A DNA stretch of 64,000 nt from assembly GCF_002001105.1 (NCBI RefSeq), contig NZ_MUNP01000050.1:1-64000 (forward strand), in the 5' to 3' direction. Made by a program: the position numbers and the translations under genes. The stretch's first letter is position 1. Each line of letters opens with the position of its first letter. The notes beneath the pieces are model-generated. The model worked only from the letters and a program-made list of their open reading frames with translations, was not told the origin of the DNA and did no database searches. The stretch comes from Rhodanobacter sp. C06. Lineage in GTDB: Bacteria; Pseudomonadota; Gammaproteobacteria; Xanthomonadales; Rhodanobacteraceae. Shown piece after piece: positions 46,196 to 63,031 of the stretch.

Positions 46196-46725
46196 GGCGT
46201 GCTCCGTACGGAGTCGGCTTGCAACCAGCGCCGCGCCAAGCTGGTGAGCAGGGGCAGCGCGATGGCCCAGCCCGCCGCCAAGGCCAGCAGCGTCGGCCAT
46301 GCCGGCGTGGGCAGCAGCACCGCGTGCCAGCCGCGCGCGGCACCGAGGTAGGCCAGCGGGCCGCCGATCGCACCGAACAGCGCGGCCAGCACGGGCCGTG
46401 CGTGCAGGTAGGCGAACAAGGGCACGATGGTCAGCGCAAAGGCCACCCACAAGGCCATCAGCCAGGCCGGCGCCTCGGCCAGCGGCCACGGCGACGCGTA
46501 GCCCACCAGTCCGGCGCGCACCCACACGCCTTCCAGGACCAGGCCCAGCAGCAAGGCCATGGCGACCAGCCGCAGTTCCACGCCGCGATGCGCCGATGCC
46601 GCCAAGCGCCAGGCGGCGAAGGCCAGCGTGCCGACCACGCCCGGCCACCAGTGCCCGTGGCCCGCGCCGATCACGGCGGCGAACCACACCGCTTCGTAGG
46701 CGATCAGGGTGAGCCAGAAATTCAT
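46192..46725 (-). CDS. DUF2878 membrane protein
   Basis: A 177-aa protein with five to six hydrophobic helices: WLTLIAYEAVWFAAVIGAGHGHWWPGVVGTLAFAAW, LVAMALLLGLVLEGVWVRAGLVGYASPWPLAEAPAWLMALWVAFALTIV and LPLLTSL near the end. The WxxG and APAWL features match DUF2878. The function is unknown, but in other proteobacteria it travels with CFA-like, DUF1365 and ChrR-regulated genes. Overlaps of 4 nt with both neighbours show tight coupling. Confidence 0.85.
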   Translation of the reverse strand: MNFWLTLIAYEAVWFAAVIGAGHGHWWPGVVGTLAFAAWRLAASAHRGVELRLVAMALLLGLVLEGVWVRAGLVGYASPWPLAEAPAWLMALWVAFALTIVPLFAYLHARPVLAALFGAIGGPLAYLGAARGWHAVLLPTPAWPTLLALAAGWAIALPLLTSLARRWLQADSVRSTP

Positions 46726-47996
46726 GCCGCGCCGCGCTCGGTCGCGGTACTGCTGCGCTGCCAGCGTGGGCGCGCCATCAGCAGGTGCGACACGCCGATC
46801 GAGCGTTCGCGGAAGCCGCCCTCGCAGTACGCGAGGTAGAACTCCCACATGCGGATGAAGCGCTCGTCGAAACCTTGCGCGCGCACCTCCGGCAGCCGCG
46901 CCATGAAGCGTTCGCGCCAGGCGTGCAGCGTGCGCGCGTAGGAGTCGCCGAAATCCTCCTGCGCGATCAGGCCGAGGTCGCTGCTGCGGGCCTTGGCCGC
47001 CAGCAGCGCGCCGAGCGAGGGAATGAAGCTGCCGGGAAACACGTGGCGCTTGATGAAGTCCACCGACTTGAGCGCCTGCGCGTAGCGGTGGTCCTCGATG
47101 GTGATCGCCTGCAGCAGGGCCAGGCCGTCGGGCTTGAGCAGGCGGCCGAGCTGGTGGAAATACGCGTCCAGGAATTCGGCGCCGATCGCCTCGACCATCT
47201 CGATCGATACCAGCTTGTCGAACTGGCCGTCCAGGTCGCGGTAGTCCTGCAGCAGCACGTGGACGCGCTCGCCCAGGCCCGCGGCGGCCACGCGCTCGCG
47301 CGCCAGCGCGTGCTGCTCCCGCGAGATCGTGGTGGTGGTGACGTGGCAGCCGTAGTGCCGCGCCGCATGCAGCGCGAAGCCGCCCCAGCCGGTGCCGATC
47401 TCCACCACGCGATCGCCCGGCTTGAGCGCGAGCTTGCGGCAGATCAGGTCGAGCTTGCGGGTGGAGGCGGCCTCCAGCGTGTCGTCCGCGCCGCACCAGT
47501 ACGCCGAGGAGTACATCAGGTCGCCCGACAGGAACAGCCGGAAGAAATCGTTGCCGAGGTCGTAGTGCGCGGCGATGTTGCGCCGGCTGCCGTGGCGGGT
47601 ATTGCGCCGGCAGGCATGCACCGCGCGCATCGCCATGCCGCCGAGCCGCGCCAGGCCGGTTTCCATGCCGTCGAGCAGGTCGCGGTTGCGCAGCAGCAGG
47701 CGGATCAGGCCGACCAGGTCGTTGCAGTGCCACTGGCCGTCCATCCAGGACTCGCCGGCGCCCACGCTGCCGTTGGCGGCGACGGCGCGATAGAAGGCCG
47801 GGTCGAGCACCTCGATCTCCACGGCCAGATCCGTCGCTTCCCCGGCCGGTGTGCCGATCGCCACTGTGCCCAGCGCATCGCGCAAGGTCAGCCGGCCGTG
47901 GCCGAAGCCGGCCAGTTGCTGCAGCAGGCGCCCGCGCAGGAAGCGGTCGAGGCCGCCGATCGGCGTGTCGATGTCGCGTTGGACGATGGCGTTCAT
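46722..47996 (-). CDS. Cyclopropane-fatty-acyl-phospholipid synthase family methyltransferase
   Basis: A 424-aa enzyme with an N-terminal substrate-binding domain (LLQQLAGFGHGRLTLRDALG to GSVGAGESWMDGQW) and a C-terminal SAM domain: NIAAHYDLGNDFFRLFLSGDLMYSSAYW, motif I RVVEIGTGWGGFALHAARHYGC, SIEMVEAIGAEFLDAYFHQLGRLLKPDG and FIKRHVFPGSFIPSL. The family adds a SAM-derived methyl(ene) to double bonds of membrane lipids, giving cyclopropane or methyl-branched chains. Its operon context (FAD oxidoreductase, DUF1365) marks the stress-linked branch rather than the housekeeping Cfa. Confidence 0.92.
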   Translation of the reverse strand: MNAIVQRDIDTPIGGLDRFLRGRLLQQLAGFGHGRLTLRDALGTVAIGTPAGEATDLAVEIEVLDPAFYRAVAANGSVGAGESWMDGQWHCNDLVGLIRLLLRNRDLLDGMETGLARLGGMAMRAVHACRRNTRHGSRRNIAAHYDLGNDFFRLFLSGDLMYSSAYWCGADDTLEAASTRKLDLICRKLALKPGDRVVEIGTGWGGFALHAARHYGCHVTTTTISREQHALARERVAAAGLGERVHVLLQDYRDLDGQFDKLVSIEMVEAIGAEFLDAYFHQLGRLLKPDGLALLQAITIEDHRYAQALKSVDFIKRHVFPGSFIPSLGALLAAKARSSDLGLIAQEDFGDSYARTLHAWRERFMARLPEVRAQGFDERFIRMWEFYLAYCEGGFRERSIGVSHLLMARPRWQRSSTATERGAA

Positions 47997-48004
47997 GGCA
48001 GGCC

Positions 48005-48769
48005 TCAGGAAAGTTGCGGGTGGTCGTGGAAGGGATTGCGTTTCAGCCACAGGCGCAGCGCGTTCCAGTAGATCGCGCCCACCACCTGCGTCGTCATCAG
48101 CGGATAGCGCCACAGCACGCGCGCCAACGAAGCACCGGTGAGCGGCAGGCGTTCCAGCCGCAGGTGCGCGTCGAATTCGCGCTCGCCGTCGCGCAGCACG
48201 TTCATCTGCACCTGCAGTTCGTCGCCCGGCAGGCTGAAGCACCATTCGTACTGGCGCTCCATCGGCATGAACGGCGAGACGTGGAAGGTCTTCGGGAAGT
48301 CCCAGCGCAGCAGGCGCCCGTGGGCATGCGCGGTTTCGCACGGCAGCACGTAGGCATGGCGCTCGCGCCACGGCGTGTTGGTGATCTCGGCGACGATGCA
48401 GTCCAGCGTTTCGCCATCGCCGGCATAGCAGTAGTAGAAGCTCACCGGGTTGAAGACACTGCCGCCATAGCGCAGATGGGTGAGCAGGCGGATCGGGCCA
48501 CCGGGGCGGCGTCCGATGGCCTGCTCCACGCGTTGGCGCACCGCCTCGGCCAGCGGCAGCTCGGCGGGCCCGAGGTAGTCGCCGCGGCGGAACTCGGCGA
48601 GGTTGCGGCGCCCGTTCGACCACAGCCAGCGGCCCGCGAACACGCGGTCCAGCTCGTCCAGGTCCAGGTAAAGCTGCGCCATGCGGTAGGAGAAGGCGTG
48701 CGGATGCGGCGCCCGGCGGCGATGCCACACCGCGCCTTCGTACACCGCGCTGCGCAGCGACTCGGTCAT
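48005..48769 (-). CDS. DUF1365 family protein
   Basis: A 254-aa protein: [38 protein letters not shown] at the N-terminus, then [22 protein letters not shown] (diagnostic), [29 protein letters not shown] and a basic C-terminus. The biochemical role is not known, but the gene is nearly always next to the FAD oxidoreductase and CFA-like genes, so it probably acts in the same lipid modification. Starts inside the 3' end of the FAD gene (overlap 4 nt). Confidence 0.92.
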
Positions 48770-50055
48770 GCGGCCGCTCCGGCGGCGCGCCGCAAGGCGG
48801 TGGACTTGTATGCCGGCCAGCGCACGTCGAACGCGGCCGCCACCTCCACCGCGCTGCGCATGCCGTCCTCGTGGAAGCCCCAGCCCCAGTAGGCGCCGGC
48901 GAACCAGGTGCGGTTGACGCCCTGGATCTCGTGCTTGCGCCGCTGCGCGGCCACCGAGGCCTGCGTGTACACGGGATGGCGGTAGTGCATGCGCCGCAAC
49001 ACCTTGGCCGGGGCTATCGCCTCGCTGCGGTTGAGCGTGACCACGAACGGCGCGGGCGCGTCGAGGCCTTGCAGCAGGTTCATGCAATAACTCACCGTGC
49101 ACGGCGCGCCGGCTTCGCGCGGCAGGTAGGCGTTCCACGCGGCCCACGCCTTGCGCCGGCGCGGCAGCAGCGTGGCGTCGGTGTGCAGCACGACGTCGTT
49201 GGACTGGTAGGGGATCGCGCCGAGGATCGCGTGTTCGCGTTCGCCGGCGTCCGCCAGCAGGGCCAGGGCCTGGTCGCTGTGGCAGGCCAGCACGACCTGG
49301 TCGTAGCGCTCGCTGCCGGTGTCGCTCGTCACGATGGCGCCGAGCCCGTCGCGGCGGATCGCACGCACCGGGCTGTTCAGGCGTTCGTGCACATTCCAGC
49401 GGTGGCGCAACGCGTGCACGTAGCTGGCCGAACCGCCGCGCACCACGCGCCATTCGGGCCGGCCGGCCACCTGCAGCATCTGGTGGTTCGCCATGAACTG
49501 CACCAGGTAGCGCGCGGGGAACGCCAGGATCTGCGCGGGCGGCGCCGACCACAGCGCCGAAGCCATCGGCACCAGGTGTTCGTCGCGGAAGGCGGTGCCG
49601 TAGCGGTGTTCCGCCAGCCAGTCGCCCAGCGCGGGGCCGTTGCGCGGCCCGTCGAGCAGGGCCGGCGCCTCGCGGTAGAAGCGGAACAGGTCGCGCACCA
49701 TGCCGAGGAAGCGCGGCGACAGCAGGTTGCGGCGCTGGCAGAACAAGCTGTCCAGCGAGGCGGCGTTGTATTCCAGTCCGCTGGCGGCGTTGTGCACCGA
49801 GAAGCTCATCGTGGTGGGCTGCGAGGCCACGCCCAGCTCGTCGAACAGCTGGGTCAGCAAGGGGTAATGCACCGGGTTGTGCACGATGAAGCCGGTGTCC
49901 ACCGCGTACTGCCGGCCGGCGAGCTCGATCGCGTGCGTGTGCGTGTGGCCACCGAGGTAGTCGTTCGCCTCGTACAGCGTCACCTCGTGGCCGCGCGACA
50001 GCAGCCAGGCCGAGGCCAGCCCCGCGATGCCCGATCCGACCACGGCGATGCGCAT
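48766..50055 (-). CDS. FAD-dependent amine-oxidase-like oxidoreductase of the lipid operon
   Basis: A 429-aa flavoprotein with the dinucleotide-binding motif [28 protein letters not shown] at residues 3-30, then [28 protein letters not shown] (typical of the NAD/FAD-binding proteins paired with DUF1365), and a C-terminal [21 protein letters not shown]. It resembles phytoene-desaturase/amine-oxidase folds. In alphaproteobacteria, similar flavoproteins act in furan-fatty-acid formation, which makes lipid desaturation the likely reaction. It is 1 nt downstream of the desaturase gene. Confidence 0.9.
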
Positions 50056-50056
50056 G

Positions 50057-51064
50057 TCAGCGCTCCGCCTTGGCGAGCACCCAGGCGGGCACCGGTTTCA
50101 GGTCCTGCACCAGCCCCAGCAACGCCATCAGCCTGAGGCCGTACCAGGTCAGGTCGACCTCCCACCAGCGAAAACCCTGCCGTGCGCTGCCGGGAAAGAA
50201 GTGGTGGTTGTTGTGCCAGCCTTCGCCGAACGTGAGCAAGGCCAGCCAAACGTTGTTGCGGCTGTCATCGCGGGTGCCGTAGCGACGCGAGCCGTAGCGG
50301 TGCGCCAGCGAGTTGATCGTCACGGTGGCGTGGAACAGCACCACGGTGGAGACGAAGAAGCCCCACACCAGCATTTGCCCGCCGCCGGTGTGCAGCTGCG
50401 GCGCGGCATGATGCAGCAGCACGCCGAGTAGATACAGAGCCACCGCCAGCAGCACCGGCACGGCGATGTCGTAGCGGTCCAGCCAGCGCAGTTCGGGATA
50501 TTTCGCCAGGTCCGGCACCCGTTCCAGCTCGGTGCGGAACGCGCGCGGCGTGAGGAACCAGCCCATGTGGCTCCACAGGAAGCCGTGCACGCCCGGGGAA
50601 TGCGGATCGAGCACGGTGTCGGCGTGGCGATGATGGTTGCGGTGATGCGCCGCCCACCACAGCGGGCCGCGCTGCACGCAGGCGGCGCCGATCAGCGCGA
50701 ACACGAACTGCACCGTGCGCGACGTGCGGAAGGTGCGGTGCGAGAAGTAGCGATGGTAGAAACCGGTCAGCGCGAACATGCGCACTGCGTACAGCGCGGC
50801 GGCCACGGCCAACGCAATGGGAGACACTCCCACCCAGATCACGCCGAGGCAAGCCAGGTGCAACGCAACGAACGGTGCGCCGCGGACCCAGTCGATACGG
50901 TCGGCACGGGACTCGTCGAGTGCCCCGTCGGGGGTGCTGTCGATCCAGTGGCGCACTTCGCGCAGCAGTCGCGGCCGGCGCGACTGCATGACGACGGTGT
51001 CGCCGGCCGCAGGATGGGCGGTCGGTGGGGACGAGGGATTCAGCGGGAGGCGCGAGCGTGTCAT
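50057..51064 (-). CDS. Fatty-acyl (delta-9 type) desaturase
   Basis: A 335-aa membrane di-iron desaturase with all three His boxes: HRYFSHRTF, HHRNHHRHAD and EGWHNNHHFF, between four hydrophobic helices. The layout is that of acyl-CoA/acyl-lipid delta-9 desaturases. It is the first gene of a tightly packed seven-gene operon (to 44322) with the FAD oxidoreductase 1 nt downstream, and it probably supplies double bonds for the CFA-like enzymes. The Met at 51064 is used; a later Met (MQSRRPRL) is possible. A sigma/ChrR-type promoter lies at 51095-51121. Confidence 0.92.
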   Translation of the reverse strand: MTRSRLPLNPSSPPTAHPAAGDTVVMQSRRPRLLREVRHWIDSTPDGALDESRADRIDWVRGAPFVALHLACLGVIWVGVSPIALAVAAALYAVRMFALTGFYHRYFSHRTFRTSRTVQFVFALIGAACVQRGPLWWAAHHRNHHRHADTVLDPHSPGVHGFLWSHMGWFLTPRAFRTELERVPDLAKYPELRWLDRYDIAVPVLLAVALYLLGVLLHHAAPQLHTGGGQMLVWGFFVSTVVLFHATVTINSLAHRYGSRRYGTRDDSRNNVWLALLTFGEGWHNNHHFFPGSARQGFRWWEVDLTWYGLRLMALLGLVQDLKPVPAWVLAKAER

Positions 51065-51094: not shown

Positions 51095-51121
51095 TACGAA
51101 CGAAATGGCGCCTTGGATGCA
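51095..51121 (-). promoter_or_regulatory. Candidate ECF promoter of the lipid operon
   Basis: On the minus strand, TGCATCC (51121-51115), a 16-nt spacer and CGTA (51098-51095). The ATG of the desaturase gene is about 30 nt further on. It is one of six sites in the window with identical spacing; the 11-nt string TGCATCCAAGG is shared exactly with the sigma gene's own promoter at 58389. Confidence 0.8.
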
Positions 51122-51193
51122 TACGATGGCACGGCTGGCCCCGGCGTGGCGGCCGAATCCATCCCGCGGTCGGCGGGTTCAGCCGGATCGCGG

Positions 51194-51220
51194 TGCATCC
51201 AGTGGGCAGCCTGCCGCGTA
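51194..51220 (+). promoter_or_regulatory. Candidate ECF promoter of the hydrolase-MAPEG operon
   Basis: TGCATCC (51194-51200), 16 nt, CGTA (51217-51220), followed by CC as in most other copies. It is divergent from the lipid-operon promoter, about 70 bp away. It lies inside the longest open frame of the hydrolase gene, which argues for the downstream start at 51253. Confidence 0.78.
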
Positions 51221-51252
51221 CCTATCCTGTCTTCTTCGGCCAGGCGGGACTC

Positions 51253-52230
51253 ATGGGCATTTCGGCAGGGGCACGTTCGCTACGACGTTGCGCGATGACG
51301 CTGTTGGCCTTGCTGCAGACCTTGCTGTTGAGCGGCTGCCAGGCGAGCCTGTTTCACGCCCTCAATGCCACGACCGGTGACAGCGGGCTCAGCGTGCAAC
51401 CGGACATCGTGTTTGATCCCGAGCTCCATCTGGCATTGGACATCTATGCGCCGCGCGGCGCGCACGATCTGCCGGTCGTGGTGTTTTTTCATGGTGGCAG
51501 CTGGCAGGACGGCGAACGCCAGTGGTACCGCTGGATGGGCGAGGCGTTGGCGCGGCACGGGTTGGTGGTGGCGATTCCCGATTACCGCAAGTATCCGCAG
51601 GTGCGCATGGCGGGTTTCATGTCCGATGCGAGCCATGCCGTGGCGTGGGTGCATGCCCATGCCGCCGACCATGGCGGTGATCCGCGAGCGCTGTTCCTGA
51701 TGGGGCATTCGGCGGGGGCGCATATCGCCGCGCTGCTCGCCACCGACGGGCACTGGTTGGAAAGTGTCGGCCTGCGTCCCGATCGGCTGGCCGGATTCAT
51801 CGGGTTGGCTGGCCCGTATGATTTCCTGCCGCTGACCGAGCCAGCCTACGTCGGCATGTTCGGTGCTTCGCCACAAGCGCAGGCGCGCTCGCAACCCGTC
51901 AACTTTGTCGATGGCGACGAGCCGCCGATGCTGCTTTTGCAGGGGATGACGGACCGCTATGTGGCGCCGAAGAATGCGTGTGCGCTGGCGAGCCGAATGC
52001 GCGCGCACGGCGAACCGGTCGAGGTGCATCTTTATCCTGGCATGGGCCATGTCCGCTTGCTGTTGTCGTTTTCCCATCCGCTACGCAACAGTTCGACGGC
52101 CCTGGATGCCACTCTGCGCTTCATTCATGAACACGAAGCGGATCATCAAGCGGGTTCGGAGGTTTCCGGGAGCGTGGCGAAGGGAGCTGACGCCTGCGAC
52201 CGGGTGGTATCCGCAAGGCCTTCGCAGTGA
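51253..52230 (+). CDS. Lipoprotein alpha/beta hydrolase
   Basis: A protein of about 325 aa with a lipoprotein signal (MTLLALLQTLLLSGC, the lipobox Cys at about residue 29) and an esterase fold: LPVVVFFHGGSWQDGERQWY (oxyanion HGG), nucleophile motif GHSAGAHIA, and a C-terminal catalytic His region (YPGMGHVRLL). It resembles carboxylesterases and kynurenine-formamidase-like enzymes. The start at 51253 is preferred because the sigma-type promoter at 51194-51220 is upstream; a Met at 51295 gives a compact signal peptide and is equally possible. Probably cleaves oxidised lipids or esters at the membrane. Confidence 0.86.
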   Translation: MGISAGARSLRRCAMTLLALLQTLLLSGCQASLFHALNATTGDSGLSVQPDIVFDPELHLALDIYAPRGAHDLPVVVFFHGGSWQDGERQWYRWMGEALARHGLVVAIPDYRKYPQVRMAGFMSDASHAVAWVHAHAADHGGDPRALFLMGHSAGAHIAALLATDGHWLESVGLRPDRLAGFIGLAGPYDFLPLTEPAYVGMFGASPQAQARSQPVNFVDGDEPPMLLLQGMTDRYVAPKNACALASRMRAHGEPVEVHLYPGMGHVRLLLSFSHPLRNSSTALDATLRFIHEHEADHQAGSEVSGSVAKGADACDRVVSARPSQ

Positions 52231-52332
52231 ATTCGTGGAAACGCCCGGAAACCTGGTTCATGGGCTTTGCGTGCGTTTCGGTCTGGCCGCGCAAGGACAC
52301 TTGCGGGTGCCCAACCCATCGGAGGTGTCGAT

Positions 52333-52725
52333 ATGAGCGTTGAGCTGCAAATGCTGGGCTGGTCGGTCGTGCTTGGTCTGGTGTATGTACTGGTGGCGGC
52401 GGCCTTCGGCACCTGGCAACGCGGCTTGCGGTGGAATGCGGGCAACCGCGACGGCGAGGCGGACCCGCTAGCCAAGTACGCCGCCCGCGCGGACCGCGCC
52501 AACCGCAATTTCCTCGAAACCTTTGCGTTCTTCGCCGCCGCCACCTTGGCGGTGGTGGCGATGCACAAAGCCGGCGCGCAAACCGCGACCGGTGCGCAGA
52601 TCTATTTCTGGGCACGCGTGGCGTACCTGCCGGTCTATGTCCTCGGCATTCCCTATCTGCGTACGGCTATCTGGATCGCCAGCCTGTGGGGGATCCTGCA
52701 GATGCTGGAAGCGTTGCTGCGCTAG
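52333..52725 (+). CDS. MAPEG-family membrane protein
   Basis: A 130-aa protein with four hydrophobic helices and the MAPEG pattern: LQMLGWSVVLGLVYVLVAA, YAARADRANRNFLETFAFFAAATLAVVAM (the conserved Glu/Asn-rich RxxxNxxE motif) and AYLPVYVLGIPYLRTAIWIASLWGI. MAPEG proteins handle glutathione- and eicosanoid-type lipid-soluble electrophiles in eukaryotes; bacterial roles are mostly unknown. A GGAGGTGTCGAT site precedes the ATG. It follows the hydrolase gene by about 100 nt and would share its promoter, fitting lipid-peroxide handling. Confidence 0.88.
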   Translation: MSVELQMLGWSVVLGLVYVLVAAAFGTWQRGLRWNAGNRDGEADPLAKYAARADRANRNFLETFAFFAAATLAVVAMHKAGAQTATGAQIYFWARVAYLPVYVLGIPYLRTAIWIASLWGILQMLEALLR

Positions 52726-52975
52726 CTTGTCGGAGGACGGGATGGCGAGCCATGGACCGGGCTGCGCGATGTGCGGCCTGCGGCAGGAATGACCTGCGAA
52801 CTTTTCCATGCTGCTGCTCGCGAAAAAGCGCGGCGGTGGCGTTGCGTCGTCGCCTACCGCCGCGAAACTTGTCCTGCTTTTTCGCAGACCGGCATCAGGC
52901 CACCCCCTGTTCACTGCCTCATGGCAATGCGGTAAGGCCGGCTTCGCTCCATGCAGGCGAAGCGCGGCGTTCCGG

Positions 52976-53836
52976 TCAATCCGGATCACGCATGCCCTGC
53001 ATGCCTTGCATCGGCTTCGAGCTGAAGAACAGGTAGAAGTTGGAAGGCACCTCGATGGCCTGACCCTGCCTCTCGGCCTTGCGCAGTTTCGCCACCGAGG
53101 TGATGCCGAAGCCGCCACTCTGGTCTGGCCAATCGGCCGGGTCGGTGACCAGCACCGGCTCCACTTCCCACCAGATCGCCTTTTCCGTGTTTGCGAGCGC
53201 ATTGGCGATCACGTGGCTGTGGTTCGGCGTGGGCAGGAACACATTCGTCGCCGGTGCCGGCAGCTTCCCGAGCGCGACCAGCACCTTGCCGAGGTCGACC
53301 GCGGAGGCGTGCATCGTGCAGGTCCCCGGCATCGAGCCCGGCCCGGGACAGTCGGTGAACACCAGCGGCTTGATCTTGTAGGCCTCCGGCACCGCTCCGA
53401 ACAGCTGGATCAGCACCTTGCCGAGGGCGGGCCCGCACAGCGTGGCGGCCCTGACCCCGGTCGGGCACGGGATGGCGTCGTTGGGGTTCTGGTCCTTGTC
53501 CAGCGAGAACATCGGCACCAGCACGTAAAGAATGGCCGTTCTCTTCGCGTTTTCGCCGGTCGGATCGATCGTGGGCTGGGTGCCGGCCTGGCAGATCGGT
53601 GTCTGGAATTCGCCCGGGTCCGATTGCGCCAATACGCCGTTGTAGTCGAGATCATCGCCGGGCTGATCGACACAGGCAAAGTTCTGCTGGTAGGTGAACT
53701 TGACCAGCTTGCCGTGCGCAAACCCCTCGGTCTGGTTGGGTCGTAGCGATTGGGCGTTGGCGCCGCCGACGGCAAACAGCGCCGCAAGCAAGGCCGCCGG
53801 CAAGAGCTTCAGGAGTGAACGCTTCGTGGGTTTCAT
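52976..53836 (-). CDS. Secreted Cys-containing protein of unknown function
   Basis: A 286-aa protein with a Sec signal peptide (LLKLLPAALLAALFAVGGANAQ, cleavage near residue 29) and six Cys in the mature part (FACVDQ, PICQAG, IPCPTG, TLCGPA, TDCPGP, GTCTMH), consistent with three disulphides in the periplasm or outside the cell. Distinctive blocks are LDYNGVLAQSDPGEFQTPIC, FLPTPNHSHVIANALANTEKAIWWEVEPVLV and a Met-rich end (MQGMQGMRDPD). I do not recognise the family. A sigma/ChrR-type promoter stands 85 bp upstream. The gene is single. Confidence 0.82.
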   Translation of the reverse strand: MKPTKRSLLKLLPAALLAALFAVGGANAQSLRPNQTEGFAHGKLVKFTYQQNFACVDQPGDDLDYNGVLAQSDPGEFQTPICQAGTQPTIDPTGENAKRTAILYVLVPMFSLDKDQNPNDAIPCPTGVRAATLCGPALGKVLIQLFGAVPEAYKIKPLVFTDCPGPGSMPGTCTMHASAVDLGKVLVALGKLPAPATNVFLPTPNHSHVIANALANTEKAIWWEVEPVLVTDPADWPDQSGGFGITSVAKLRKAERQGQAIEVPSNFYLFFSSKPMQGMQGMRDPD

Positions 53837-53920
53837 GGTGCCCTCCTACAGGGATCCATACCTCGCGTACGCCTCTCGCCCCGTATCGCCGATGCGGGAG
53901 TCTCGGGCGTACGCATCAGG

Positions 53921-53947
53921 TACGAAGGCCATCGGTCGGCGGATGCA
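53921..53947 (-). promoter_or_regulatory. Candidate ECF promoter of the secreted Cys-rich protein gene
   Basis: Minus strand TGCATCC (53947-53941), 16 nt, CGTA (53924-53921), then CC. Same spacing as the other five sites. The gene starts about 85 nt downstream, leaving a leader of roughly 75 nt. Confidence 0.78.
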
Positions 53948-54013
53948 CGGAGGAACCCGCTTTTCCGCGACAGGGTTTGCCGCCCTGCCACGGCACGGGA
54001 GCCGTTGCGGCCG

Positions 54014-55117
54014 TCACCGGTCGCAGGAAGCAGGCAGGGTCGGCCCATTCCTTCCCGCCGAAGTACGGTTCTGATGGATCAGCCGATTGAGACGGTCGCG
54101 CAACTGGCGCACCACGGCGCTGCCACCCGTGCGCAGCGTCACGTGATCGTCGCCGGCCGCCGCACGATCGATGGCGTACAACATGCGTTCCAGCGGCAAC
54201 CAGGTGCGCCACCACAGCCAGACGGTGCCGAGCACGGCCAGCAGGCCCAGGCAAGCCACGCCCGCCAGCAACGGTATCGCTTCGCGCGGAACCATGCGCT
54301 GCGCGCCACCGGTCGAGGGCAGCAGCAACCAGACGGCCCGGCCGTTGGAGACCGGTACGGCGAGCGCATCGGCCACCGCCGAACCTGCGCCGGGCAGCGA
54401 CCGTGGGCCATCGCTGGCCGACAGCGCGACTCCACGCAAGCGGGTCAATTCCGTCGGCGATGGCGGCACCGCGCCGCTGTACACGAGTGGGATGGTCGGG
54501 TTGGACGCGCTCAGCAAGGCGAGATCCACGCCGCTCGTGTCGTGTACTTCATTCGCAAAAGCGGCTTCGACGCGCCGAGCAGTCACCACCAGGCCTTGCA
54601 GGCTGCGACCGCGCAACAACGGAGCTATCGCCACGCGCAGCAGGCGATCGTCATCCAGCCAGTATCCCTGCACCGGTTGGTCAGTGGCGATGGCTTTGCG
54701 TACCAGCGGATCGCTGGCGATGGTGGCGGGCGCGCGCGCAAGCAGGCCCGAAATGCCCGCCGGTTTGCCGGCAGGATCGAGCACCAAGGCCACGTCGTAG
54801 CCGTGGCGGCGTTCGTTCAGCTGGTCGATGATGGATGCGCTGTCGATGGCGCCGCCAAGCTGCGGGTTGGGGATCAGCGATTGCGCCATGTAATCGACGA
54901 AGGCGGAATCGTTGGCGAGGGCCTGCGCACGCAGGGCGAGGTTGTCCATGTCCATCCGCTCCAGTGTCGCCAGCAGCTTGCCGCCGGTGGCGACGTTGTG
55001 GCGGGCGTTGGCCAAGGCTTGCCGGCGGGACAGATGGATGGTGCCGACGGCCGCGGCCACGGTGCCGGCCAGCACCAGCAGCAAGCCCAGCGCGAGGGAA
55101 CGATAGGCCGCGCTCAC
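54014..55117 (-). CDS. Cache-type periplasmic sensor protein without output domain
   Basis: A 367-aa protein with an N-terminal helix (LALGLLLVLAGTVAAAVGTIHL), a periplasmic sensor region of about 250 residues resembling double-Cache domains (VALVLDPAGKPAGISGLLARAPATIASDPLVRKAIATDQPVQGYW), a second helix near residue 290 (AIPLLAGVACLGLLAVLGTVWLWWRTW) and a short HAMP-like cytoplasmic tail (LERMLYAIDRAAAGDDHVTLRTGGSAVVRQLRDRLNRLI). No GGDEF, kinase or chemotaxis output follows. It starts at a GTG overlapping the cupredoxin gene stop (GTGA), so the two are made together. Confidence 0.8.
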   Translation of the reverse strand: MSAAYRSLALGLLLVLAGTVAAAVGTIHLSRRQALANARHNVATGGKLLATLERMDMDNLALRAQALANDSAFVDYMAQSLIPNPQLGGAIDSASIIDQLNERRHGYDVALVLDPAGKPAGISGLLARAPATIASDPLVRKAIATDQPVQGYWLDDDRLLRVAIAPLLRGRSLQGLVVTARRVEAAFANEVHDTSGVDLALLSASNPTIPLVYSGAVPPSPTELTRLRGVALSASDGPRSLPGAGSAVADALAVPVSNGRAVWLLLPSTGGAQRMVPREAIPLLAGVACLGLLAVLGTVWLWWRTWLPLERMLYAIDRAAAGDDHVTLRTGGSAVVRQLRDRLNRLIHQNRTSAGRNGPTLPASCDR

Positions 55118-56052
55118 GGGCCAGGCTCCGGATTGATGTCCGCGACGATCGCTGGTTTGCTGATGATCACGCGTTCGTGCAGGTCGCCGAGTGGCGCGGT
55201 CACTGATCGCCTCAGCAATTCGCCCCGCGGGTTCCACACATACAGCGCCCCCGGACCCGGTGGCAGATGGCGCAGGCTGAAATGGCCATCGGCGCTTGCG
55301 GTAGTGCGGTAAGGGCTGGGCACCACCAGCAAGTCCAGTTCCATCGAACGGTGCACGTTGCAACTGATCAGCATCAGGCCGGCACGATCGAAGCTGTGCG
55401 TGGCGGTCTGGCCCGCAGTCTGAAAGCCGAGGTCGAAGGCGCCCCCGGGCGTCACCGAGAACACGTTGTGGCGGATCTGGTCCAGATTCACGAACTTGAC
55501 CGTGCTGCCGAGCGGGATGGCCATGGCCTCCGGCTTGAAGTCGCGATTGACGGTATAGACCGTGTATGTCCCGGCGTGGACCCTGGAAGTGCCCGAGGCG
55601 GGTACGAAATAGACCAGGGTGTTGGCCATGTCGCCGGCCGATATGGGCTGCCCGGACTTGCCGATCAGTTCGATTCGTCCGCTCAGTTCGGCGGAGGTCG
55701 AGTCCGCTTCGGGTCGCGCAGCGACGCTGCGTTGCGAGGCATGCGCCACGCGGGCGATGCGCGGCAGCGGCGACACCGGGGCGACCGGCGCGGATGGCGT
55801 CGCCGGAGGGGTCGCGGTCGCCGGTGCGAGCGCGGCGACCTCCGGCGACGCCGACGGTGCAGCTGGCACCTGCGCCGATGCGGCTGGCGCCGCGGGTTCG
55901 CTCTGGGCAGGCGCAGGCGCCGTACCGGCAACGGATGCGGCGGACGAAGGCGCCACCGTCGGCGCCGAGGTGGAAGGTGTATTTGCCCTGGGTGCCGGAT
56001 TGCACGCGCACAAGCCGAGTGCAGACAACAGAACAAGTCGTTTATCGAGCAT
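55114..56052 (-). CDS. Cupredoxin-domain lipoprotein (methylamine-utilisation-like)
   Basis: A 312-aa exported protein with a lipoprotein-like leader (LVLLSALGLCAC), an Ala/Pro-rich linker (to about residue 115) and a plastocyanin-like domain: TVKFVNLDQIRHNVFSVTPGG and DRAGLMLISCNVHRSMELDLLVV, where His, Cys, His and Met are the type-1 copper ligands. A carboxypeptidase-regulatory-like domain follows (GHFSLRHLPPGPGALYVWNPRG). Such proteins often precede sensor or cytochrome genes; here the Cache protein is coupled to it. Copper binding is inferred from the ligand pattern. Confidence 0.84.
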   Translation of the reverse strand: MLDKRLVLLSALGLCACNPAPRANTPSTSAPTVAPSSAASVAGTAPAPAQSEPAAPAASAQVPAAPSASPEVAALAPATATPPATPSAPVAPVSPLPRIARVAHASQRSVAARPEADSTSAELSGRIELIGKSGQPISAGDMANTLVYFVPASGTSRVHAGTYTVYTVNRDFKPEAMAIPLGSTVKFVNLDQIRHNVFSVTPGGAFDLGFQTAGQTATHSFDRAGLMLISCNVHRSMELDLLVVPSPYRTTASADGHFSLRHLPPGPGALYVWNPRGELLRRSVTAPLGDLHERVIISKPAIVADINPEPGP

Positions 56053-56176
56053 GACAGCCCCCTGTGGCTGTTGTAAGCAAAGTGCTTGCGCCTTTGCGGG
56101 CGCAGCTTTTTCATGGAAAGCGACACCACGCGAACGCCGCGGTTGGCTCGCGACGTTCGCGTGAGAGATCACTTCC

Positions 56177-56677
56177 TCATGGCTTGGTGATGATCTGCCG
56201 GTTCATCGGCGCGAGTTTGGCCAGCAGCTTGTTCTGGGCGCGGAACGGGATGTCGTGCTTGCTCATCGCCTTCTGCAGGTCTTCGACCAGCGCATTGAAA
56301 TCGGCGCGGTCGACGTTCATGCCACGATGCACCGAGGCCATGTCCTTGCCGGTGTAGCTGCACGGGCCATCCAGGATCACGCAGAACTGGTCCACCAGTT
56401 CGACCTTGATGTGCTCGCGGTCGGCGTTCTGGAAGAACGGGCGGGTGACCGGGTCGGCCATCAGGTTGTCCATGAAATCGTTCATCAGCGCGACCAGGCC
56501 GGGCTTGCCGCCGAATTGCTCGAATACCGGCTTGAGGGAAGGATCGCGCGGCGCGGTCGGGTAGGCATCGCCGCCGGCGTTGGAACCGGCCGGTTGCATG
56601 GCGGTTTGCGCCGAAACAGTGGTGCCGGCCATCAGGCCGGCGGCGAGGAGCAGGGCGCAGGGCAGGATCTTGTACAT
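56177..56677 (-). CDS. Group 1 truncated haemoglobin with signal peptide
   Basis: A 166-aa protein: a clear Sec signal (ILPCALLLAAGLMAGTTVSAQ) followed after a linker by a 2/2 globin domain, KPVFEQFGGKPGLVALMNDFMDNLMADPVTRPFFQN, with Phe-rich core and VDQFCVILDGPCSYTGKDMASVHRGMNV, where the His of VHRGM is the proximal haem ligand. Truncated haemoglobins bind O2/NO; export to the periplasm is unusual and suggests a role in NO or oxidant detoxification at the envelope. It is 26 nt downstream of the DUF3034 gene and shares its promoter. Confidence 0.88.
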   Translation of the reverse strand: MYKILPCALLLAAGLMAGTTVSAQTAMQPAGSNAGGDAYPTAPRDPSLKPVFEQFGGKPGLVALMNDFMDNLMADPVTRPFFQNADREHIKVELVDQFCVILDGPCSYTGKDMASVHRGMNVDRADFNALVEDLQKAMSKHDIPFRAQNKLLAKLAPMNRQIITKP

Positions 56678-56703
56678 GGTCAATTCCTCGTGGCGTGATC
56701 GGG

Positions 56704-57618
56704 TCAGAAGCCCACCTGCACGGACGCGTACAGGCCGTGCTGGTTGTCCTTGATGACGACGTTGCCGAGGTTGGCGTAAGCCAGCGTCAGCGAGACGTGC
56801 TTGGTCGGCGCCCAGGCGACGAAGGCGTCGTACCAGTCGTCCTCCTTGGCGATGCCGAGGTTGTTCGGCTTCTGGCGGTATTCCGCGCCGATGGCCCAGT
56901 TGCGGCTGAGCAGGTAGGCGACCGAGCCTTCGAATTCGGCCTGGTAGCTGTCGTTCTTGTCGCCGCCGAAGCCGAGGATGCCGATCTGGTTGGCCTTGGT
57001 GAAGCGCACGGTGGCGTCCAGCAACAGGCTCTGCGACAGGAACAGCTTGGTCGCGCTGATGTAGTAGTCGGTGCTGTGGTCGCTCTTGGCGCCGATCGCG
57101 TGCAGGACCGCGCCCTGGTCGTTGCTCTTGTATTGCATGCCCACCGATACCTGCGGCAACCAGCTGTCCTGGTCGAGTACGGCGTCGCCGAACAGCCGCA
57201 CCTTCACGCCGATCACGTTCTGCCGGAAGCTGAAGCCGCGACCCAGCCCTAGCGCGGCGCCCACGTCCTCGGTGTCGAAACGCTGCTGTGCCACCGAAAA
57301 CTCGACGCGGTTGTCGATGCCGAACATCGCGCCGGCATCGTCGAGGTGGTAGTCCTGCACGTTGACCCGGGTGTAGAACGCGTTCGCGCCGAACTGGCCC
57401 TGCGTGCCGTAGCTGCCGATCAGCGCCCACGGGGTGAGACCGCCGCCGGCGGAACCTTCGATCTGCGACACGCCGCCGGTGAGCAGCAGCTTGCCGCTGA
57501 CGTTGTCAGCTGGATCGCCGCCGTCGGCGGCGATCGCCTGGAGCGAAACCAGTCCGCCAGCCAGCGCCAAGGCGCCGACCAGCAGCAGCTTTTGCCTGCG
57601 AAATTTGTGCATTGCCAT
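56704..57618 (-). CDS. DUF3034 family outer-membrane protein
   Basis: A 304-aa exported protein: signal peptide (LLLVGALALAGGLVSLQAIAA), then the DUF3034 hallmark GKLLLTGGVSQIEGSAGGGLTPWALIGSYGTQGQFGANAFYTRVNVQDYHLDD and alternating beta strands ending in Phe (YASVQVGF), which looks like an outer-membrane beta-barrel. The function of DUF3034 is not known. GGGAGG stands just before the ATG at 57618. The gene begins an operon with the exported truncated haemoglobin under a sigma/ChrR-type promoter. Confidence 0.87.
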   Translation of the reverse strand: MAMHKFRRQKLLLVGALALAGGLVSLQAIAADGGDPADNVSGKLLLTGGVSQIEGSAGGGLTPWALIGSYGTQGQFGANAFYTRVNVQDYHLDDAGAMFGIDNRVEFSVAQQRFDTEDVGAALGLGRGFSFRQNVIGVKVRLFGDAVLDQDSWLPQVSVGMQYKSNDQGAVLHAIGAKSDHSTDYYISATKLFLSQSLLLDATVRFTKANQIGILGFGGDKNDSYQAEFEGSVAYLLSRNWAIGAEYRQKPNNLGIAKEDDWYDAFVAWAPTKHVSLTLAYANLGNVVIKDNQHGLYASVQVGF

Positions 57619-57658
57619 GTCCTCCCTCTTTGGCGCACCACTTGCGCCATGAGGGAGG

Positions 57659-57685
57659 TACGGAGCAAATGCGTCCAAGGATGCA
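57659..57685 (-). promoter_or_regulatory. Candidate ECF promoter of the DUF3034-haemoglobin operon
   Basis: Minus strand TGCATCC (57685-57679), 16 nt, CGTA (57662-57659), then CC. Forty-odd nucleotides upstream of the DUF3034 start. One of six identically spaced sites. Confidence 0.8.
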
Positions 57686-57698
57686 CGGCGAGCGTTTT

Positions 57699-58088
57699 TC
57701 ATTGGACTCGCGCCACGTGCCAGTTGCCGTTCACCCCGTTGCCCAGTGCCGTGCCGGGCGCGGTATCGCCGGCGTAGCGGTAGAGCGGGCGCCCCCGATA
57801 GCTCCACTGCCGGCTGTGATCGGCACGCGAAACCAGTCCGAACCCACCCGCCGCCTTGGCGTCTGTCGCGGCGAGATACGGCGGCCACAACGCGGCGCAG
57901 GTCCCGTTGCACTGGCTATGGCCGCTGTTACCGTCCGGATCGTAGGTGTACAGCGTCATTCCGTGGCTGCCGACCAGCCGCTGCTGGGTGTCGGCCGCAG
58001 GTGGCACCTGCGTTTGCGCGGTGGCCAGGGATGGCTGCAAGCACAGCACGCCCAGCAGGATCGAACAGGTCAGGACCGAGGCTTTCAT
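57699..58088 (-). CDS. Exported YxWxxD-repeat (COG4315-type) protein
   Basis: A 129-aa exported protein with a signal peptide (VLTCSILLGVLCLQPSLATAQ) and the secreted-repeat motif TLYTYDPDGNSGHSQCNGTCAALWPPYLA followed by WSYRGRPLYRYAGDTAPG. The Yx(F/W/Y)xxD pattern and Cys pair match the COG4315 predicted lipoproteins, which are of unknown function and often lie in ECF-sigma-controlled operons. It has its own sigma-type promoter upstream. Confidence 0.86.
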   Translation of the reverse strand: MKASVLTCSILLGVLCLQPSLATAQTQVPPAADTQQRLVGSHGMTLYTYDPDGNSGHSQCNGTCAALWPPYLAATDAKAAGGFGLVSRADHSRQWSYRGRPLYRYAGDTAPGTALGNGVNGNWHVARVQ

Positions 58089-58133
58089 CGCGTATCTACC
58101 CGCTCGACGCAGGCAAATGCCTGCCGAGCTAGA

Positions 58134-58160
58134 TACGGCTGGCGAAGGCGTGCGGATGCG
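58134..58160 (-). promoter_or_regulatory. Candidate ECF promoter of the YxWxxD-protein gene
   Basis: Minus strand CGCATCC (58160-58154; first base differs from the other five copies), 16 nt, CGTA (58137-58134), then TC. The gene starts about 45 nt downstream. Confidence 0.72.
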
Positions 58161-58388
58161 TGATGGATGGGGGTACGGAGGTGGGCGTCCAGCGCGGCGG
58201 GGAAAGCGGCTGTTCGGCGCCACGTTTGGTTCTTCAAGCGGAATCGACACAAACGTCCCGGGCGTGTCGCGAGCTCGCATGAGAAGGAAGCTTCGGTTGC
58301 GAGCGGTCTTGTTTGGTTGAATACCGAAAAGGCAATTGCACGAGGTTGTGCGCGTTCGCCTGCCTGCCCGCAGATTCGCAGCGGCGAC

Positions 58389-58415
58389 TGCATCCAAGGA
58401 GCGTGGCTTCACGTA
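58389..58415 (+). promoter_or_regulatory. Candidate autoregulatory ECF promoter of the sigma/ChrR operon
   Basis: TGCATCC (58389-58395), 16 nt, CGTA (58412-58415). It lies in the 370-bp divergent gap (58089-58458), which holds this site, the opposite-facing site at 58134-58160 and no other gene. If used, translation of the sigma gene must start at 58459 or 58513, not at the further upstream ATG at 58336. Confidence 0.82.
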
Positions 58416-58458: not shown

Positions 58459-59085
58459 ATGGCTACCCATCGCACACACGGAAGCCTGTCGCCGTTCGAG
58501 GCGGCGCGAGCCATGTCGAGCATCGAAACCCACGCGAAGGATGCGGGCTACTGGGCCGGTCAGATGGTGGCCGTCTCGTGCACGCGCGATCGGGATAGCT
58601 TCATGCGCATCTACGACCACTTCGCGCCCCGTGTTCAGCTCTACCTGAAGGGACTGGGTTCGCCTGAAGCCGTCGCGGAGGAGTTGACCCAGGAAGCGTT
58701 GCTGCGACTCTGGCAGCGGGCCGAACTCTACGATGCGGCGCGTAGTGGCCTGTCGACCTGGTTGTTCCGGATCGCCCGGAATCTGCATATCGACCGCGTC
58801 CGTAGGGAACCGCAGTGGGTACCGGTACAAGACGCGCTGGAACGACTCGACGAGCCTGAGGATGCCGGGCCCTCGCCGGCGGAGAGCTACGCCGAGCACG
58901 TCGACCTCAGGAACCGCATCGAGCAGCTCCCGGCCACCCAAGCCCGATTGATCCGCATGTCCTATTTCGAAGCCAAGTCCCACCAGGAAATTGCCGACGA
59001 GCTCGGCATGCCGCTGGGCACGGTGAAATCCTGCCTGCGCCGCGCATTCCTGCGCCTGCAGCTGGGTGTAAGGAGGGGCGCATGA
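58459..59085 (+). CDS. ECF sigma factor (ChrR-associated, RpoE-like)
   Basis: A sigma-70-family ECF factor of 190-208 aa. Region 2: FMRIYDHFAPRVQLYLKGLGSPEAVAEELTQEALLRLWQRAELYD and the following GLSTWLFRIARNLHIDRVRR; region 4: RIEQLPATQARLIRMSYFEAKSHQEIADELGMPLGTVKSCLRRAFLRL with its helix-turn-helix. It overlaps the ChrR-type anti-sigma gene by 4 nt. In Rhodobacter the homologous RpoE-ChrR pair answers singlet oxygen. The start 58459 follows the promoter; a Met at 58513 (MSSIETHAK) is the alternative. Confidence 0.92.
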   Translation: MATHRTHGSLSPFEAARAMSSIETHAKDAGYWAGQMVAVSCTRDRDSFMRIYDHFAPRVQLYLKGLGSPEAVAEELTQEALLRLWQRAELYDAARSGLSTWLFRIARNLHIDRVRREPQWVPVQDALERLDEPEDAGPSPAESYAEHVDLRNRIEQLPATQARLIRMSYFEAKSHQEIADELGMPLGTVKSCLRRAFLRLQLGVRRGA

Positions 59086-59765
59086 CTCCGCGTCATCATC
59101 TCAATGAAGCCACCCTGGTCAGCTTTGCTGCCGGCGCCTTGTCGCCCGAGATGACCGCGGTGGCGGCCACGCATCTCGAAGCCTGCCGCGATTGCCGCGA
59201 CAGGTTGGCCCACGCCGAACGCATCGGTGGCCTCTTGCTGGGACAGCAGCAGGCCGCCGAGCTGGATGCAGCCAAGCGCGGCCGCCTGCGCCGGGAAATG
59301 CTGGATCGCCTCGACGAATCAACGCAAAGCCGCCACGACGGAACCATCCAGGCGCTCTCGCCTGACGTGAGCCCCGGCGATCCGGATGGCCTGCCGCAAC
59401 CGCTGCGGGCTTATTTCGGCCCCACATGGAGTGCACTGCGCTGGCGCTGGGTCGCGCCCGGCGTGCACATGATCCGGGCTGCGCACACCAGCGGCGACAC
59501 CTTGCTTTTGCTCAAGATCGCGCCGGGCAAGAGCATGCCCGTGCATAGCCATCAAGGCACCGAGTTGACCCAGATCCTCCAAGGTGCCTACGACGATGCA
59601 CTGGGTCATTTCAGCCCCGGGGATGCGGCCGACCTCGACAACGAAACGGAGCATCAGCCGATCACCGCGCCGGGCGCGCCGTGTATTTGTGTCGCGGCAA
59701 TGGATGCGCCTTTGCGCTTCCCGGGTTGGCTCGCTCGCAAGCTGCAGCCGCTTGTGGGGTTGTAA
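59082..59765 (+). CDS. chrR: ChrR-type anti-sigma factor with cupin domain
   Basis: A 227-aa zinc anti-sigma factor. The N-terminal sigma-binding domain has the four ligands at ChrR-like positions: His5 or His6, His31, Cys35 and Cys38 (HLEACRDC). A C-terminal cupin domain (residues about 110-210) shows the metal-binding HSHQGTE and later EHQPITAPG segment. In Rhodobacter, the cupin is needed for release of the sigma factor by singlet oxygen. Translational coupling to the sigma gene and the conserved ligands make this assignment firm. Confidence 0.93.
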   Translation: MTPRHHLNEATLVSFAAGALSPEMTAVAATHLEACRDCRDRLAHAERIGGLLLGQQQAAELDAAKRGRLRREMLDRLDESTQSRHDGTIQALSPDVSPGDPDGLPQPLRAYFGPTWSALRWRWVAPGVHMIRAAHTSGDTLLLLKIAPGKSMPVHSHQGTELTQILQGAYDDALGHFSPGDAADLDNETEHQPITAPGAPCICVAAMDAPLRFPGWLARKLQPLVGL

Positions 59766-61501: not shown

Positions 61502-63031
61502 TCATAGATCGTCAAGGTTGTTCAGCAGTTCGGTCGCGCGGTCGCGCAGCACGGCAAGACGAGCTTCGGGCCAGCGACCGAGCTGCCGGTACGCAAACGC
61601 AAGGCGGGGGTTGTCGGCCAGCATGTGGCGATGCCGCGCAAGAAAATCCCAGTACAAGGCGTTGAACGGGCAGGCGTCGTCGCCGACTTGCTTGTCTCGC
61701 CGGTACCGGCAGCCTCGGCAATAGTCGCTCATGCGATGGATGTACGCCGCCGACGCGACATACGGTTTGGTGGCGAGCAAGCCGCCGTCCGCGTACTGGC
61801 TCATGCCCAGGGTGTTGGGCAGTTCCACCCACTCGAACGCGTCGATGTAGATGCCCAGGTACCAGCGGTGCAGCTGCCCGGGATCCAGCCCGGCCAGCAG
61901 CGCGAAGTTGCCGGTCAGCATCAGCCGCTGGATGTGGTGGGCATGCGCATGCTCCAGCGAGTGCGTGATCGCGTGGTGCAGGCAATTCATCCGGGTGTCG
62001 CCAGTCCAGAACCACGCCGGCAGATCGCGCTGGTGGCCGAAGGCGTTGCTCTCGGCATAGGCTGGCATGTGTGCCCAGTACACGCCGCGGATGTATTCGC
62101 GCCAACCCAGGATCTGGCGGATGAAACCCTCGGCAGCGGCCAGCGGCACCTTTCCTGCGCGCCATGCCGATTCGGCACGGGCGATGACTTCGCGCGGCGA
62201 CAGCATCTTGACGTTGAGGGCGAAAGACAACAGGGAGTGGAACAGGCGTGCCGCCTGGGTACTCATCGCATCTTGGTAGTTGCCGAAATGCGGCAACGCC
62301 TGCTCCACGAAGGCATCCAGCTGCTGCAGGGCCTCGGCGCGATTCAAGGGCCAGCGAAAATCCCCGGCATGTGGTTGGCCGAAACTCCGGACGCCGGCGG
62401 CGACGATGCTTGCCCACAGGGCGCGGTGATCGTGGATGGGGCGGTTGTCCGGCGGCTCCAGCGGCATGCCCGACCAGGATCGGCGATTCTCCGCATCGAA
62501 GTTCCAGCGCCCGGTCGCTGGTTGGCCGTCTTTTTCCATCAGCACGTCGTGTACCGCGCGCATGTGGCGATAGAACGTTTCCATCCGCCAGTGCTTGCGC
62601 GCACCGAACAGTCCCGCGACGTCGTCGCGCCGCGTCAGGAAATGCTCGCTGTCGACCATGCGCGCCGGGATGGCCAAGGTCTGCACGTAATCGGCCAATT
62701 GCCGGTCGAGGCGCCACTCGTCGGGTGCCTGGTATTCGAAGGTGGTTGCGTGGCGGTCGACCATCAAGCGGTCGAGGTTGGCCGGGATGGCGTGCAGGTT
62801 GTAGGGGTCGTCGATCGCGAGGTAACACACGCGGTTGCCCGCCGACTGGAGTTGCCGCGCGAAATCGCGCATCGCGGCGAAAATGCCCAGGATTTTCTGG
62901 GCGTGGTGCAGGACGTAGTCGGTTTCCTGGCGCACCTCCATCAGGACATGCAGGACGTTGGGGTCGACGGCCTCGAACCACGAGTGCCGCGGATTCAACT
63001 GATCACCCAGCAGCAGCCGCAGCATGGTCAT
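61502..63031 (-). CDS. Iron-sulfur photolyase/cryptochrome (PhrB-type)
   Basis: A 509-aa member of the FeS-BCP class of photolyases, light-driven DNA-repair enzymes (some 6-4 photolyases). N-terminal alpha/beta domain starts LRLLLGDQLNPRHSWF; the FAD-binding helical part includes FIRQILGWREYIRGVYW and the 4Fe-4S ligands: a Cys in DTRMNCLHH and Cys438, Cys441 and Cys454 in SDYCRGCRYRRDKQVGDDACPFN. These match the numbering in Agrobacterium PhrB. It ends the lipocalin-TspO-photolyase operon and is a typical singlet-oxygen regulon member. Confidence 0.93.
   Translation of the reverse strand: MTMLRLLLGDQLNPRHSWFEAVDPNVLHVLMEVRQETDYVLHHAQKILGIFAAMRDFARQLQSAGNRVCYLAIDDPYNLHAIPANLDRLMVDRHATTFEYQAPDEWRLDRQLADYVQTLAIPARMVDSEHFLTRRDDVAGLFGARKHWRMETFYRHMRAVHDVLMEKDGQPATGRWNFDAENRRSWSGMPLEPPDNRPIHDHRALWASIVAAGVRSFGQPHAGDFRWPLNRAEALQQLDAFVEQALPHFGNYQDAMSTQAARLFHSLLSFALNVKMLSPREVIARAESAWRAGKVPLAAAEGFIRQILGWREYIRGVYWAHMPAYAESNAFGHQRDLPAWFWTGDTRMNCLHHAITHSLEHAHAHHIQRLMLTGNFALLAGLDPGQLHRWYLGIYIDAFEWVELPNTLGMSQYADGGLLATKPYVASAAYIHRMSDYCRGCRYRRDKQVGDDACPFNALYWDFLARHRHMLADNPRLAFAYRQLGRWPEARLAVLRDRATELLNNLDDL

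Follow-up and report, generated by a model that had tools for sequence, protein, structure and literature searches.

Which regulator reads six near-identical promoter-like sites around a sigma factor/ChrR operon in Rhodanobacter sp. C06, and is it that sigma factor alone? The sites lie in a stretch of 64,000 nucleotides (the window; positions 1-64000 of contig C4, part of a 4.14 Mb genome), and a sequence-only reading had taken them to define the regulon of the extracytoplasmic function (ECF) sigma factor encoded among them. Our analysis suggests that the sites are probably ECF-type promoters of one regulon concerned with envelope lipids and photo-oxidative damage, and that two sigma/anti-sigma pairs which are not orthologous, ECF11/ChrR and ECF18/RskA, can both use this class of promoter. 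The candidate regulon is likely to comprise the six window sites, a seventh at C4:64443 and an eighth, remote from the cluster, that precedes a fasciclin gene.

An exact scan of the window for YGCATCC-N16-CGTA returned six matches and no others: at 51095-51121 (-), before a lipid operon that begins with a fatty acid desaturase gene; at 51194-51220 (+), before an alpha/beta hydrolase gene; at 53921-53947 (-), before gene 52976-53836; at 57659-57685 (-), before a DUF3034/globin gene set; at 58134-58160 (-), before a Lipoprotein_15 gene; and at 58389-58415 (+), before the sigma-chrR operon, where it would serve autoregulation. These are precisely the sites, in coordinates and strand, of the sequence-only reading, and its further particulars hold as well: GCATCC and CGTA are exactly 16 nt apart in all six, the -35 element starts as TGCATCC in five (that at 58134 being CGCATCC), CGTA continues as CGTACC in four, and every site stands before a correctly oriented gene start, with 30-84 nt between the end of CGTA and an ATG on the same strand.

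Genome-wide, GCATCC-N16-CGTA has 12 matches, i.e. the six in the window, the one at C4:64443 (-), one each on contigs C3 and C55, and three within long reading frames (on C22, C25 and C81); the exact form TGCATCC-N16-CGTA occurs six times, comprising five window sites and the one before the fasciclin gene. In the genome scan that had been proposed as a check, the looser GCATCC-N15to17-CGTA is not enriched (17 matches vs 27 for a reversed control), so that the signal lies in clustering and position rather than in total count. The absence of over-representation of the loose, free-spacing form, which lacks the first base, is what can be said for chance or a compositional repeat with no regulatory role. 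Such an origin is scarcely credible, given that 6 sites were seen where 100 dinucleotide shuffles of the window yielded a mean of 0.10 and a largest count of 2, and given that dozens of species keep sites at the corresponding positions while the control genes are clean (see below); as far as sequence can show, it is already refuted.

The sigma factor gene (58459-59085, +; PF04542 and PF08281 above cut-off) and the overlapping gene for the anti-sigma factor (59082-59765, +; a zinc domain plus a cupin) encode, judging by their profile and structure matches, an ECF11/ChrR pair. The best PDB match of the sigma factor is Rhodobacter sphaeroides RpoE (2q1z_A, E 2.4e-31). ChrR scores 168.3 bits against TIGR02451 (cut-off 124.5) and falls below the cut-off of the narrower equivalog NF051881 (154.2 vs 300); it matches R. 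sphaeroides ChrR (PDB 2z2s_B) with E 2.2e-34 and with all eight zinc ligands aligned, i.e. H6, H31, C35 and C38 plus H141, H143, E147 and H177 as reported for the known protein (PMC6852236), and H6, H31, C35 and C38 plus H155, H157, E161 and H191 here, as counted by eye in the alignment. ECF11 and ChrR co-occur in the same 32 of 107 genomes of the window's own family. Among the records searched, the sigma gene is closest to that of Rhodanobacter sp. DHB23 (97% identity), the nearest named relative by this measure.

The window pair resembles the known ECF11 RpoE-ChrR systems of R. sphaeroides, Pseudomonas syringae (PSPTO_1043/1042) and Shewanella (RpoE2) in its sigma/ChrR operon and autoregulated promoter, and photolyase and cyclopropane-synthase genes are likewise targets in known ECF11 regulons. 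With P. syringae and Shewanella it also shares the N16 spacer and the CGTA -10 element: the consensus for PSPTO_1043 after ChIP-seq is reported as TGATCC-N16-CGTA (PMC5507510), and of the five promoters predicted for Shewanella RpoE2, four have TGATCC and the fifth TGATCA, followed after N16 by CGTA, and two start sites were mapped (PMC4336711). The sequence-only reading had contrasted the window sites with a known consensus of longer spacing and different sequence. Because P. syringae and Shewanella promoters too have N16, the claim of longer spacing fails for these; the -35 sequence does differ, by two bases, with GC for TG and the T one base further upstream. These ECF11 promoters have TGATCC where the Rhodanobacter sites have (T/C)GCATCC, a promoter variant that lies outside the protein definition of the group. 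One P. syringae site, that of PSPTO_4231, is given as gcATCC-N16-CGTA, and the gene responds 7-fold to sigma overexpression (PMC5507510). Rhodanobacter differs further from the known ECF11 systems in the additional targets DUF3034/globin, Lipoprotein_15 and hydrolase, and in the association of a second sigma pair with the promoter. As for ECF11, the regulon is of a known kind, its -35 element being specific to the clade.

Conservation was followed in a footprint set of 80 named loci, retrieved by means of the sigma gene and scanned with [N]G[CA]ATCC-N16-CGTA. A site precedes the sigma gene in 72 of the 80 loci and the desaturase gene in 54 of 56, as against 0/79 for chrR, 0/55 for the first cyclopropane-fatty-acid-synthase-like (CFA-like) gene, CFA1, and 3/57 for the FAD oxidoreductase gene, these being control genes expected to be without a promoter of their own. 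At the sigma gene the -35 element is TG(C/A)ATCC-like in most relatives, and the eight loci without a site there include three Pseudomonas loci, which carry TGATCC-N16-CGTA. The DUF3034 site (N16, at most one mismatch) is found before 12 of the 13 close orthologues whose genomes have ECF11 or ECF18 and before neither of the two whose genomes lack both, 8 of 23 listed places (E worse than 1e-130) having been left out as likely paralogues. The hydrolase site is kept in locus L018 and not in L045 (46% identity), the only other locus with a homologue; gene 52976-53836 and the Lipoprotein_15 gene each occur in L018 alone of the 80 loci, with their sites kept (we took G080 as the genome of L018, as coordinates and sequence context agree). 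The seventh site, GGCATCC-N16-CGTA at C4:64443-64469 (-), lies 443 nt beyond the window end, before a lipocalin gene, and is shared by 12 of 51 lipocalin homologues, all of them among the 14 whose identity is 60% or more. The ECF11/ChrR identity and the retention of sites in relatives support the proposal that the six sites are ECF-type promoters of a sigma/ChrR regulon that includes the sigma factor's own promoter. In an ECF11-only genome, G001 (L200, L247), the sigma and desaturase promoters both read GGGATCC-N16-CGTA, their -35 elements having changed in step.

The desaturase promoter was compared with sigma factor content in two families, the window's own (107 genomes, desaturase in 60) and a second (89 genomes, desaturase in 42), and was scored as present with N16, CGTA and at most one mismatch in TGCATCC; in the second family ECF11 presence was taken from ChrR, and G298, whose ChrR match falls in two pieces below the cut-off, was counted as positive. 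In the window's family, the promoter is present in 32/32 ECF11 genomes (all exact; one of them, G135, counted from the exact-motif scan), and in 19 of 20 genomes with ECF18 only (18 exact; G194 has TGAATCC with N16, and G217 only a form with N17). Of eight genomes with neither sigma factor, six are without a site. The second family gives 14/14 for ECF18 only (11 exact), 9/10 for ECF11/ChrR (7 exact) and 0/18 with N16 for neither. Pooled, the promoter is present in 74/76 genomes (34/35 genera) with either sigma factor and in 2/26 genomes (1/14 genera) with neither; across these relatives its presence depends on that of a sigma factor. Seven of the eight sigma-less genomes of the window's family were rechecked, and the desaturase-oxidoreductase pair is intact in all seven, six of which are promoterless, so that the operon outlives its promoter. 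Counts of the motif per genome point the same way, with a mean of 4.18 in 17 ECF11 genomes vs 1.28 in the 134 remaining genomes of the order set (0.12 and 0.28, respectively, for the reversed-pattern control), and of 4.17 vs 2.39 in the window's family alone; they are useful, albeit weaker than the promoter-by-promoter comparison.

Since the promoter is kept in relatives that have no ECF11/ChrR but do have a SigK/RskA-like pair, the motif is not specific to sigma/ChrR alone. The proposal that it defines a sigma/ChrR regulon fits the ECF11/ChrR genomes and is incomplete, the same promoter being found in ECF18-only relatives. The Rhodanobacter genome itself has both pairs. Outside the window, 7 kb past sigma/ChrR, a class I photolyase, an RskA-like anti-sigma factor and an ECF sigma factor were identified by profile and structure matches at C4:64486-67275, the RskA-like/ECF18 pair occupying C4:65927-67275. 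The RskA-like protein adjoining the sigma factor scores 74.8 bits against PF10099 (cut-off 29.4); the sigma factor has SigK (4nqw, E 1.2e-36) as its best PDB match and both C133 and C183, cysteines reported in 94% of ECF18 and 56% of ECF19 proteins (PMC7509140). ECF11 and ECF18 form separate clades (support 98/100 and 97/93). The second pair is like SigK-RskA (ECF18/ECF19) and the mpt83-sigK-rskA cassette in its SigK-like sigma factor, the adjacent RskA_C protein, C133/C183 and a fasciclin gene with the motif, and unlike them in its ECF11-type CGTA -10 element, its links with lipid and photolyase genes and, in the window's family, the general lack of a site before its own gene.

The fasciclin gene provides a putative target away from the cluster. 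Its exact TGCATCC-N16-CGTA, at C55:77727-77753 (L103 2028-2054; -), follows a parE-like gene (so named by eye) and stands 49 nt ahead of the fasciclin gene, which encodes a secreted protein, and is the only exact copy outside the cluster. Sixteen close orthologues were retained in the window's family, with 21 of 37 listed places (E worse than 1e-70) left out as likely paralogues, and 14 of these belong to ECF18 genomes; 12 of the 14 have the site in exact form, including 7 of the 8 without ECF11. G164 and G210, which have ECF18 and neither ECF11 nor the desaturase, keep the exact fasciclin site; of the two ECF11-only genomes, one shows an N17 form and the other a TGCATCT form. MPT83 belongs to the fasciclin proteins. 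In the mpt83-sigK-rskA cassette, a SigK site is linked to mpt83 (PMC7509140). In the window genome, the mpt83-like (fasciclin) gene is preceded by TGCATCC-N16-CGTA, which may or may not be of the SigK type. The regulon table for R. sphaeroides RpoE, too, includes a fasciclin gene, RSP_1409 (PMC7074977).

A simpler account is that, in the window genome, ECF11/ChrR alone reads the regulon and that ECF18, though using a similar motif elsewhere, is insulated from it. ECF11 does sit inside the cluster and carries a site itself, the genome's own ECF18 gene has no site before it, and in Stenotrophomonas maltophilia induction is reported to be lost without rpoEc (PMC11832516). We nonetheless consider exclusive use by ECF11 unlikely, as the promoter (at most one mismatch) is kept in 33 of 34 ECF18-only genomes of two families, and as the fasciclin gene of the window genome has the exact motif while 14 of its 16 orthologues are in ECF18 genomes.

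The S. maltophilia system is the closest published experiment in the literature searched and supports, for a relative, use of the promoter by ECF11. Nine genes, smlt2375-2367, are reported to be induced 165- to 697-fold by mutation of chrR and to drop again when rpoEc is absent, and smlt2374-2367, under ChrR control, have the same order as the window operon: desaturase, oxidoreductase, hypothetical, CFA, two membrane proteins, CFA and lipocalin (PMC11832516). An S. maltophilia locus (L063) has TGCATCC-N16-CGTA upstream of the sigma gene, as here; the S. maltophilia motif is given in Figure 6 of PMC11832516, so that ECF11 may already have been described there as using TGCATCC. There are differences. 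The S. maltophilia operon is rpoEc-chrR-chrA, whereas in the window the gene after chrR is on the opposite strand and hence no chrA follows; the window lipid operon lies 7 kb from the sigma gene and is not divergent from it, unlike that of S. maltophilia; and the window genome, unlike the S. maltophilia system as compared, also has ECF18/RskA. The S. maltophilia pair, that of the nearest relative studied, is reported to act in superoxide tolerance, not in that of singlet oxygen (PMC11832516).

Several observations weigh against one promoter class served by two sigma factors. The main one for this genome is that no motif site was found in the 350 nt upstream of its ECF18 gene. In the window's family such a site (at most one mismatch) precedes the ECF18 gene in only 1 of the 31 genomes examined (of 33 with ECF18, excluding G187 and G207), so that ECF18 is mostly not autoregulated through the motif there. 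Two sigma-less genomes, G150 (exact) and G171 (CGCATCC), keep the N16 desaturase promoter, 222-226 nt upstream; four sigma-less genomes of the second family have the exact boxes with N17, and counting N17 as well changes the comparison to 75/76 vs 6/26. G217, an ECF18 genome, has only N17, and G001, with ECF11, has GGGATCC. Because ECF18 often adjoins the operon, sigma factor and operon may simply be co-inherited. Genera, moreover, are only partly independent as samples, and for three of the six window sites the backing comes solely from one very close relative (L018).

Autoregulation of ECF18 through the motif was considered as a candidate and rejected for the window genome, where the site is absent. 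In the second family, in which all 15 genomes with ECF18 and desaturase were included, six have an upstream site with N16 and at most one mismatch, 175-316 nt before the gene (L188, L178, L179, L182, L184 and L212; two exact, three TGAATCC and one CGCATCC). With 1/31 in one family and 6/15 in the other, whether a site precedes the ECF18 gene depends on the lineage.

Co-inheritance is also the basis of a further alternative, namely that a third regulator common to these genomes reads the promoter, the correlation with sigma factors reflecting shared ancestry of a lipid-operon island. The frequent adjacency of sigma genes to the operon, the two sigma-free genomes that keep an N16 site, and four sigma-free genomes that combine the N17 form with a third ECF sigma factor beside a cupin protein are in line with it. 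We regard it as improbable: where neither sigma factor is present the operon is retained without the promoter, even within genera (g6 and g76) that have promoter-bearing members, and the fasciclin promoter, on another contig in G000, tracks ECF18. The N17 boxes (TGCATCC-N17-CGTA) were seen upstream of the desaturase gene in L195, L206, L209 and L211 and of the DUF3034 gene in L229, in genomes having the third ECF beside a ChrR-like cupin protein; perhaps this third ECF recognises these boxes at a spacing longer by one base. In G150, which has an ECF of this kind, the form is N16, and neither form is present in G243 or G254.

In the two-sigma reading, ECF11 freed from the zinc-containing cytoplasmic ChrR would drive its own operon and the lipid operon, and the ECF18/SigK-like sigma factor, held by an RskA-like and presumably membrane-bound anti-sigma factor, would read the same -35/-10 elements and could switch on the same genes. 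Were either sigma factor to read the same boxes, the promoters would merge two signals. A possible reason for shared boxes may lie in the recognition helix, which reads LRRAF in almost every ECF11 row from Lysobacterales, LRLAF in three Pseudomonas rows and WIRR in ten ECF18 rows. A single arginine in this helix as the cause of the change from TG to GC is suggestive but insufficient, as G001 has LRRAF with GGGATCC and so contradicts a one-residue rule. We lean, by a little, towards a fuller version in which ECF11/ChrR (cytoplasmic) and ECF18/RskA (membrane) have converged on one promoter as interchangeable masters of a lipid and photo-repair regulon, the promoter surviving a swap of sigma factors and decaying only when both are gone, and in which a third ECF may use the boxes with N17.

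The genes concerned are as follows. The lipid operon, all on the minus strand, starts with the fatty acid desaturase (50057-51064; PF00487) and an FAD-dependent amine-oxidase-like oxidoreductase (48766-50055; PF01593); its remaining open reading frames (43756-48769) are DUF1365-like, CFA-like, two membrane proteins, CFA-like and lipocalin-like, named by reading the translations, without a family search. The alpha/beta hydrolase (BD-FAE, PF20434) is at 51253-52230 (+). Gene 52976-53836 (-) encodes an unknown-family protein, probably secreted (by eye), for which, as for that at 55114-56052 (-), there is no Pfam or NCBIfam match. The DUF3034 protein (56704-57618, -; PF11231, E 5.4e-110) and a truncated (bacterial-like) globin (56177-56680, -; PF01152) make up the DUF3034/globin set, and the Lipoprotein_15 gene (57699-58088, -; PF03640) encodes a secreted-repeat protein. 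On the same strand after the lipocalin gene of the seventh site come 63055-63807 (no Pfam match) and then the gene of a DPRP photolyase-related protein (61502-63031, -; PF04244), which is perhaps co-transcribed and read from that site. Further sites were observed elsewhere. At C3:91791 (L100 1992-2017, +), CGCATCC-N16-CGTA lies about 70 nt before a DsbD/thioredoxin-like gene that is divergent from another ECF sigma gene (PF04542), and may be a further target or due to chance. In a distant relative, G016, with no ECF11 match at E 1e-20, divergent exact sites lie 11 nt apart (L109 5405-5431, -, and 5443-5469, +).

In the literature searched we recognised no prior description of promoter sharing by ECF11 and ECF18. 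The available text on P. syringae B728a, which carries both groups, describes no shared regulon (PMC3597554). The nearest hint is from R. capsulatus, where a SigK/RskA-like pair that is induced by singlet oxygen is reported in place of RpoE-ChrR; homologues of the RSP_1087-1091 operon are absent there, and the available text describes no shared promoter (PMC7074977). ECF sigma groups have mostly been described as insulated from one another by distinct promoters; in one study most groups were orthogonal and ECF11 was among those with some crosstalk, with ECF18 absent from the text available (PMC3817407). Here, two groups appear to have one set of promoters in common and to have taken each other's place during evolution. 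Such sharing could explain how a ChrR system is lost while the response is kept, an explanation that may also apply to R. capsulatus.

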